Shown one piece after another: positions 42,771-45,128 of a stretch of DNA of 64,000 bases. The stretch is from Phycisphaerales bacterium (GTDB lineage: Bacteria; Planctomycetota; Phycisphaerae; Phycisphaerales; SM1A02). How positions within the stretch are numbered: the stretch's first letter is position 1; each line of letters starts with the position of its first letter. Under the pieces are notes generated by a model. That model was not told the DNA's origin. It did no database searches and saw only the letters and a program-made list of their open reading frames with translations. The position numbers and the translations under genes were made by a program. The stretch spans positions 130,181 through 194,180 of the forward strand of contig JAKVBT010000005.1 in NCBI GenBank assembly GCA_022446905.1, written 5' to 3'.

Positions 42771-44243
42771 ATGAGCATGCGGTCTTGGATGTTTTTGGCA
42801 ATGCTGGCAACCCCCCCCATGGCGTGGGGGTGGGATTCTGCGGACACACAGGTTCTGCAACTTGATCAGGTGAATGTGCTGCGGATCGTGTACTCGCCAA
42901 GTACCGGGGGCGCAGATGTGCAACAGATTCGGGGAGCGTGTCCACCAGAAACGGTGACACACACGGATTCTGATTTTGGGCCAGGTCAGTACGTTGTGCA
43001 GGCGGGCTTTGCAGAGGGTGAAGCCGCTGCGGCTTCTTGGACGCTGCCTCTGGACCACTTTCCACTCCGCTTCGAGTTAGCGGAGATGCTCTTTGCAACC
43101 TCGGGCGCAACCCAATCGACCACGACTGAGTGGGGGGTGGAGATTTGGCAAGGATCGCCGCAGACCGGTTCGCTGGTGGCGGCCTTTCAGTCTGATGATG
43201 TCATCATCCCGCATCTCACCATGCCGCCGGGGACTTCGGGGACCATCGTGCAATTCATGGTCGATCCTGATGACCCGGATCAGATCTATGTATCAGATAA
43301 TGGCGAGCACAGTTACTCGGTTGCATTTCGAGTCATCGCGCATCATCAGCCTGGCAGCCCATGTATTACCTCTCCACCTTCGACGGCAAATGCGTTCCCG
43401 ACGACTGATGTCGGCGGCTTAGCGGCTCCGGGTGGCAATTGGATTGACATGGTCACAGGCCCCTTCTGTGTCTGTGGTGCAGATTGGACTTCCTTTCAAC
43501 AACTCCCAGGCATCTGTACGCCAAGTGGCGACTGGGTACTTCGAAGTACTTACACACCATTTGGCTGTGCGCCGGCATCTGGGGCGTGCTGCGTTGGAGA
43601 CGGTTCATGCGATGTGACGACTGAGACCGCATGTGCTGTCGAGGGTGGCGATTACCAGGGTGATGGCACGTCCTGTGACGGCATCAACTGTCCGCAGCCT
43701 CAGGGCGCATGCTGTATCGCTTCGAACGGCAACTGTGTTGATTCAGAGATTGAGGTCTGCGCTGCGTTTGGTGGAGAGTGGTTCTTTGGAGAAACATGTG
43801 CAACGTACATCTGTTTCCCAGAGGGGGCATGCTGCCTTCCTGATGGCTCGTGTGTGGAGGCGTCGAATCCCGAGTCATGTGCGGATGCTGCAGGGGTGTT
43901 TCAGGGAGATGGCACCGAATGTTCTGCAATCGAATGTCCGGCGCCAACAGGAGCGTGCTGTACGGATAATGGCGATGACTGCTTTGTCTTGGAAGAGGCC
44001 GACTGTGTATTGTTCGGGGGCTCTTGGTTGGGTGCGGGAACCAACTGCGATGATCCAAGCATCTGCAATCCGTCACCGTGCCCTGCCGACGTCGATGGTG
44101 ACGACGTCGTGGGTGTCGATGATCTTCTGGAGATTCTCGGGACCTGGGGTCAGACGGGCAGTCTGCCCGGCGATGTCAACGGCGATGGGATCATCAATGT
44201 TGATGATGTGCTGATCGTCATCGGCGCTTGGGGGCCGTGCTAA
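42771..44243 (+). CDS. Secreted protein with four Cys-rich GACC repeats and C-terminal dockerin-like repeat
   Basis: Signal peptide; GACC...C...E.C...GG..G.GT.C...C repeated four times; C-terminal DVDGDDVVGVDDLLEILGTW / DVNGDGIINVDDVLIVIGAWGPC. Confidence 0.8.
   Translation: MSMRSWMFLAMLATPPMAWGWDSADTQVLQLDQVNVLRIVYSPSTGGADVQQIRGACPPETVTHTDSDFGPGQYVVQAGFAEGEAAAASWTLPLDHFPLRFELAEMLFATSGATQSTTTEWGVEIWQGSPQTGSLVAAFQSDDVIIPHLTMPPGTSGTIVQFMVDPDDPDQIYVSDNGEHSYSVAFRVIAHHQPGSPCITSPPSTANAFPTTDVGGLAAPGGNWIDMVTGPFCVCGADWTSFQQLPGICTPSGDWVLRSTYTPFGCAPASGACCVGDGSCDVTTETACAVEGGDYQGDGTSCDGINCPQPQGACCIASNGNCVDSEIEVCAAFGGEWFFGETCATYICFPEGACCLPDGSCVEASNPESCADAAGVFQGDGTECSAIECPAPTGACCTDNGDDCFVLEEADCVLFGGSWLGAGTNCDDPSICNPSPCPADVDGDDVVGVDDLLEILGTWGQTGSLPGDVNGDGIINVDDVLIVIGAWGPC
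43581..44066 (+). repeat. Four tandem ~41-aa Cys-rich repeats (protein level)
   Basis: GACCVGDGSCDVTTETACAVEGGDYQGDGTSCDGINC / GACCIASNGNCVDSEIEVCAAFGGEWFFGETCATYIC / GACCLPDGSCVEASNPESCADAAGVFQGDGTECSAIEC / GACCTDNGDDCFVLEEADCVLFGGSWLGAGTNCDDPSIC. Confidence 0.92.
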
Positions 44244-44268: not shown

Positions 44269-44994
44269 TTAGTGGCGGCGGCGACGCGGCTGCAAGCCAT
44301 ACAGCAGTAGCAGGGCAAGGCTCGCAGGTGCGGGGATCTCGATAATGGTGGTGGTCGATGAGATCACATTGTCGGTAAAGGCATATGTTGCAGCTACAGA
44401 CCAATCCCCGTTCGTAAATGTCAGGAGATTGAAAATCTGTTCATTCATGCCAGACATGCCCAAATCGTAGAGCGTGCTCATGACATTCTGGTTCGTATTC
44501 AATTCGGTCAGTGCCAGAGCCTCATAGGTGAGTTCGTGCCGCCATTGAAGGGCCCCTGCGCCAACCTGCGTGCCATCGCCAAGATCGTTTACCGCCCAGT
44601 TGCCACCTCCATCAAGGTTGGCCAGACTCGTATCTTCACCTTCCCAGACTGCCTCAACGCCGAGTAAGCAGAGTGGTGGGTCGCTGCTTGGCTGACCGGG
44701 TCCATCCGCTAATAAGATCAACGACGTTCCCCGCGCAGTGTCTGCCAGCATCATGGTGATCTGCCCGACTGTGTTGATGCCACCAGCTTGCAGTTCATCA
44801 TGGATGGCATCGACATCGGCATTGGTAAAGACATTGCCAGGGGTGGACAGCAGTCCAGGGAGCGTGGCGGCTTGAATGGTGGTTTCCGCACCATTGACCA
44901 CGACGGTGGCCCAACCAGCGGATGCAGCAGCACTCCAGCCCCCAAGGGCGGCCGTTGCGACAGACCACATCAGCATCCGATGATTGTTCAGCAT
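44269..44994 (-). CDS. Secreted protein with PEP-CTERM-like sorting tail
   Basis: N-terminal signal; C-terminus EIPAPASLALLLLYGLQPRRRRH = PxP + hydrophobic helix + Arg cluster. Confidence 0.75.
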   Translation of the reverse strand: MLNNHRMLMWSVATAALGGWSAAASAGWATVVVNGAETTIQAATLPGLLSTPGNVFTNADVDAIHDELQAGGINTVGQITMMLADTARGTSLILLADGPGQPSSDPPLCLLGVEAVWEGEDTSLANLDGGGNWAVNDLGDGTQVGAGALQWRHELTYEALALTELNTNQNVMSTLYDLGMSGMNEQIFNLLTFTNGDWSVAATYAFTDNVISSTTTIIEIPAPASLALLLLYGLQPRRRRH

Positions 44995-45128
44995 CAGTCT
45001 TCTTCTCAAGGTGTGCCCAGGCTGGACAGGCACCATCTTCCACCGGTCAGGGTACGTCGCAACTGCTCATCCAGCAAGGGGATAGAGACATAACAGGGCC
45101 TTCGAGGGGGGCGAGGCCCTTGGAATCC

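Follow-up and report, generated by a model that had tools for sequence, protein, structure and literature searches.

Cysteine-rich GACC modules of planctomycete proteins and their predicted likeness to the iRhom homology domain

Four tandem cysteine-rich modules, here called GACC modules, occur in an apparently secreted protein of 490 amino acids encoded in the window, i.e., the whole 64,000-nucleotide stretch of Phycisphaerales DNA that was analysed. By structure prediction, these modules fold like the second module of the iRhom homology domain (IRHD), and this identity of fold is well supported. That the likeness probably reflects homology, and that four modules in a row form a stiff rod for binding and spacing at the cell surface, is the combined reading that we favour, with more confidence than doubt. 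GACC is a large, abundant and unnamed extracellular domain family, and the IRHD is its sole structural relative found so far.

The reading frame of the 490-residue protein extends over 42771..44243 (+), and all its parts are given on that strand. It begins with a putative Sec signal peptide (MSMRSWMFLAMLATPPMAWG; 42771..42830), read directly off the sequence, which suggests that the protein is secreted. The N-terminal domain that follows (42831..43571, about 247 residues) is strongly conserved in orthologs, which have the motifs FaTs..TTT.W, DP.DPeQI, NAFP.TD and PsGDWv.R in common; searches of Pfam and NCBIfam with this domain gave no match to a known family. A C0 region (GCAPAS...; 43563..43580), with a Cys six residues ahead of the first CC, leads into module 1 (GACCVGDGSCDVTTETACAVEGGDYQGDGTSCDGINC; 43581..43691), which is followed by module 2 (43704..43814), module 3 (43824..43937) and module 4 (43950..44066), all delimited on the sequence. 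The preliminary description had placed four tandem repeats at 43581-44066, and these are real: their end points, their period of 41, 40 and 42 residues and their six Cys per repeat are exact in the translation, to which C0, a seventh Cys position about six residues ahead of the CC, can now be added. The C-terminus consists of a dockerin/EF-hand-like pair of DxDGD segments (DVDGDDVVGVDDLLEILGTWG ... DVNGDGIINVDDVLIVIGAWGPC; 44082..44240), ends with WGPC and is conserved in orthologs. Against Pfam this region reaches EF-hand_6 at a sub-threshold E of 0.18 and does not reach the Dockerin_1 cut-off, while a paralog (L202) matches Dockerin_1 with E 6.6e-6; the pair is a putative element of surface attachment. 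The convergent neighbour at 44269-45036 (-) encodes a secreted protein of 255 residues with a PEP/MYXO-CTERM-like tail (PAPASLALLLLYGLQPRRRRH), which scores below the cut-off of TIGR03382 and belongs to no family. The neighbours of the locus are ordinary chromosomal genes with no sign of a mobile-element or phage origin, and such an origin was rejected on this ground.

The module follows the pattern C0-x6-[GA]CC-x5-C-x7-C-x13-C-x4-C, and the modal spacing over 675 repeats is C0-x6-CC-x5-C-x7-C-x13-C-x4-C6, where C0 in an array is the last Cys of the preceding module. At least one of C0 and C6 is present in 481 of 485 modules and both are absent in only four, which fits a third disulfide that can be closed by either Cys. 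Paired losses of C3 and C5 (loci L039 and L049), of C1 and C4 (L033 and L043) and of C2 together with C0/C6 (L024) are suggestive of the pairing C1-C4, C3-C5 and C2 with either C0 or C6; covariation was rejected as full proof of the disulfides, since the double losses are too few. Apart from the cysteines, GA is conserved ahead of CC, G ahead of C3, T where the strand ends, GG-x-aromatic-x-G after C4 and D-G-T ahead of C5, while the loops are variable in sequence.

Homologs were collected by tblastn and profile searches, including a natural three-repeat query, and amount to 801 distinct repeats in 171 proteins, with 1 to 24 copies per protein. The module recurs in more than 20 other reading frames of the same 2.58-Mb genome and, within the class Phycisphaerae, in 99 of the 298 genomes sampled (14 of 294 for the phylum), so that the four repeats are not a product of chance. 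Several families have dozens of copies per genome, and one genome has at least 150. Most of the named loci come from metagenome-assembled genomes (MAGs) of Phycisphaerae and other Planctomycetota. The module is not confined to planctomycetes, however, since an Eisenbacteria MAG carries more than 90 copies and 18 of the 47 genomes of that phylum contain it. A few GACC-like matches, two and six per genome, were also seen in a Desulfomonile MAG (L091) and a deltaproteobacterial MAG (L111), and these scattered matches could be due to contamination or transfer. Two contigs of a viral collection (IMG/VR; L115 and L116) encode GACC repeats as well; tblastn searches of phage and plasmid collections did not find the module, and because no phage record carries it, these contigs may be misassigned bacterial DNA. 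In another planctomycete family, a protein of 692 residues (L032; G003:C226:73711-75597) consists almost entirely of 15 similar GACC modules. No model in Pfam or NCBIfam matches the repeats, neither those of the 490-residue protein nor a set of 88 diverse ones, and the family is as nameless as had been suspected.

The N-terminal domain is strongly conserved within the family and order: of 61 related genomes, 25 have it in a single copy, the source genome among them, and the others of these have 42-76% identity. All these orthologs carry GACC modules, mostly four (range 1-5), followed by a dockerin-like tail. The modules stand in a fixed order, in which module 3 is the best conserved (CFPxGACCLPDGxC) and module 2, which diverges most in the source protein, is usually also the weakest and most degenerate; the copies have thus kept their individual identity across orthologs. 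Outside this four-repeat family, isolated single modules are common.

AlphaFold2 without templates gives a compact and confident model, with a mean pLDDT of 90.6 for the four-repeat array and 89.4 for a single module. In both models the predicted fold is beta-beta-alpha-beta, with a first strand at GACC, a second at C3, a helix that carries C4 and a last strand at GGxYxG. The compact model, a signal peptide, an even count of Cys and fusions to secreted domains all agree with the earlier proposal of a disulfide-bonded extracellular module. A Foldseek search of the viral fold library BFVD gave nothing above probability 0.38 and no credible match.

The relation to the IRHD emerges from the sequence profiles as well as from the fold. 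When profile A1, built from 38 repeats of the source genome alone, is searched against 177,635 PDB sequences, the top four matches are iRhom1 (RHBDF1) and iRhom2 (RHBDF2), with E from 1.9e-4 to 1.7e-3 and all six Cys aligned, together with a second half-match within the same chains; the next match is an antibody at E 0.74. The four chains are not independent, as iRhom1 and iRhom2 are paralogs. A broader profile that includes C0 (A2, used for profile searches only; its row 88 has one residue V for I) finds nothing except iRhoms up to E 10, with E of 0.012-0.12, so that the richer profile scores iRhom lower than the seed profile does. Even module 1 of the 490-residue protein, as a single sequence, finds iRhom2 and nothing else (E 0.18-0.21). 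A reversed profile gives one unrelated match at E 8.7, and a profile in which the Cys columns are kept and all other columns permuted gives no matches in the PDB; Cys spacing alone does not, therefore, yield the iRhom match. Of 3000 Cys-preserving shuffles of the iRhom segment none reaches the real score with A1, and 0-1 do so with A2. Weak HMMER matches to filamin, OXA1L and antibodies were rejected as partial and lacking the Cys pattern.

When the single-module model is compared with the PDB by Foldseek, the same four iRhom chains rank first, with TM on the query of 0.69-0.73, deviations of 1.7-2.2 A over 39-43 columns and probabilities of 0.91-1.00; the best of these has TM 0.73 and 2.0 A over 43 residues at probability 1.00. 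The Foldseek E values of 0.09-0.76 are not significant alone for so small a domain. The next fold, the Kazal inhibitor 2kmo (LDTI), has TM 0.41, 5.5 A and probability 0.08. The four-repeat model retrieves the same iRhom targets with probabilities of 1.00, 0.98, 0.94 and 0.57. AlphaFold2 was trained before the matching iRhom entries, which were released from 2024 onward, and this makes it unlikely that the model was drawn from a memory of them. The outcome is divided with respect to the question whether the repeats belong to a characterised Cys-rich family, a strong match of which kind the preliminary description had named as refuting its reading: the fold does match a described domain, but no such family in Pfam is matched.

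The IRHD has been described as unlike any known domain (PMC6451368), as unique to iRhoms (PMC10148629) and as having an unprecedented fold (PMC11248996). The library searched contains no paper linking iRhoms to planctomycetes, and the two papers in it that mention both are, by title and abstract, about other matters. To see how the modules lie in the IRHD, consider a 146-residue stretch of iRhom1, verified letter for letter against 9xy4 and used here for numbering, in which 15 IRHD Cys fall on two GACC-like series. With C0-6-CC-6-C-7-C-13-C-4-C, the second half makes up a full GACC-type module. The first half, CC-7-C-7-C-29-C-6-C, has a long insert before C5 and scores over half its length only; as a working hypothesis it would be a second, modified GACC-type module. 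The disulfide C527-C548, which closes the iCERES loop (PMC10148629), would in this numbering be C6-C7 of module 1, and such a use of C6 agrees with the rule that the core can do without C6 if C0 is present. In iRhom2, mutation or cross-linking at D475/S477 alters the retention of the ADAM17 prodomain, and mutation of D475 releases ADAM17 activity (PMC11248996). The numbering used above places both residues in the CC-C3 hairpin of module 1.

From one fold two histories could follow. Either the GACC and IRHD modules descend from a common ancestor, or iRhom and GACC modules have separate origins and arrived by convergence at the same Cys spacing and the same beta-beta-alpha-beta packing. The latter is the main rival and a serious one, though we think it the less probable. 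Few kinds of small disulfide-rich module exist, the match extends over some 40 residues with modest E values, and hhalign of GACC against a two-sequence iRhom profile gives a probability of 39% (2.4% for the first IRHD module, where the match is limited to the order of the Cys and half of a profile). In addition, iRhom lacks the second G of GxYxG, conserved in 92% of GACC modules, and the leading G-A. The hosts are very different, metazoa on one side and two bacterial phyla on the other, and no rhomboid bearing GACC was seen in this genome: the 490-residue protein has no rhomboid match, and neither of the genome's two rhomboids shows GACC in the DNA examined. Against convergence it counts that the match depends on non-Cys columns, as seen with the permuted profile and the shuffles, and that among the other Cys-rich folds of the PDB even the closest, 2kmo, is far off. 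Because the Cys spacing, the fold, the similarity outside the cysteines and the specificity seen in two independent searches point in the same direction, common descent is ranked somewhat above convergence and is, for a short domain compared with human iRhoms only at sequence E values of 2e-4 to 0.01, probable.

Through the shared fold, the bacterial family provides a first relative for the IRHD and would split it into repeat modules, and the origin of the domain as well as the meaning of its hairpin loops, one of which holds iRhom2 D475, become testable. A more far-reaching version, to which we give slightly less than even weight, is that the IRHD as a whole is built of modules homologous to GACC, so that an old disulfide module, with bacterial uses that include secreted M12B metalloproteases, was acquired or kept by animals or their ancestor. 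The domain, an orphan so far and the most conserved extracellular part of a protein central to the control of inflammation, would then gain bacterial homologs. Independently of this, Phycisphaerae and a second phylum gain an unnamed, abundant extracellular domain that is worth a Pfam entry.

What the array does for the bacterium can be proposed from its parts. Each repeat would be an autonomous extracellular module of about 41 residues, in which a three-stranded sheet, made of the GACC, C3 and GGxYxG strands, and a short helix carrying C4 are closed by three disulfides. Four such modules would form a stiff, protease-resistant rod between the conserved N-terminal domain and the dockerin-like C-terminal anchor. 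At the cell surface, the array would most likely bind other proteins and act as a spacer, with contacts made through the variable CC-C3 hairpin loop; the binding role and the partner are the least certain part of this proposal. In a set of 55 proteins, GACC is joined to multicopper oxidases (6), galactose-binding-like domains (5), lamin-tail (LTD) domains (4) and P-domains (4), and further to lectins, Ig domains, nidogen-like domains and one subtilase, and the variety of these secreted partners makes GACC a general extracellular module.

The same promiscuity, with 1 to 24 copies next to many unrelated secreted domains and with variable loops, would also be expected if the array were a generic stiff spacer, comparable to EGF and TSP3 arrays, which keeps the N-terminal domain off the surface and has no specific partner. 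This we regard as rather unlikely, since orthologs preserve the order and individual character of the modules beyond what a free spacer needs, and since single isolated modules are common elsewhere.

A more specific use is brought to mind by five secreted proteins (L002, L065, L078, L086 and L127) in which an M12B reprolysin catalytic domain is followed by at least three GACC modules, the first of them 54-66 residues after HExxH; the one of this genome is L002:679-3105 (-). ADAM17, the client of iRhom, is an M12B protease as well. Conceivably, then, GACC on bacterial reprolysins retains or restrains the protease, for instance through its prodomain, as the IRHD does with ADAM17, and this would be the ancestral use. 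Besides the five fusions, it speaks for such a role that iRhom2 D475, with its mutation effect (PMC11248996), lies within the CC-C3 loop of the first IRHD module. It is nevertheless improbable, as most GACC proteins are not proteases, the 490-residue protein has no protease domain, and in the DNA examined only one of the five reprolysins of this genome carries GACC. An enrichment of GACC on reprolysins is by that count unsupported in this genome, and the link is a lead rather than a statistic. The protein at L065:1597-4341 has, beside reprolysin and GACC, Dicty_CTDC repeats (PF00526), another Cys-rich repeat with a eukaryotic name in a planctomycete. Finally, that the cysteines bind metal or store thiols in the manner of metallothionein, instead of forming disulfides, has their high number alone in its favour and is very improbable in view of the secreted context, the strict even parity and paired co-losses of Cys, the confident globular fold and the cystines, 8 disulfides in all, of the matching iRhom structures.

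Returning to the favoured reading of a binding and spacing rod with a fold shared with the IRHD, the known systems can be compared as follows. IRHD module 2 (8snl_B 571-606; 9xy4_A 201-236) and GACC have the same order of six Cys at nearly equal spacing, a C0, a beta-beta-alpha-beta fold that matches at 1.7-2.2 A, an extracellular location, G-x-aromatic after the helix and T before C5. The IRHD differs in several respects: it is metazoan, it is placed in a rhomboid pseudoprotease after TM1 and ahead of TM2, its first half contains a long insert, and it has an additional C6-C7 disulfide closing the iCERES loop. GACC modules, for their part, occur in arrays of 1-24 in proteins that bacteria secrete. 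In the EGF-like, TSP3, Kazal and knottin families, too, short Cys-rich units are secreted and stand one after another between other domains, but GACC matches none of them in Pfam or NCBIfam, and the nearest solved alternative fold, 2kmo, stays at TM 0.41. Proteins with type I dockerins share with this protein, and with many GACC proteins of the genome, the C-terminal pair DxDGDGxVxxxDLLxxxxxW, though the C-terminus of the 490-residue protein itself scores below the Dockerin_1 cut-off of Pfam.
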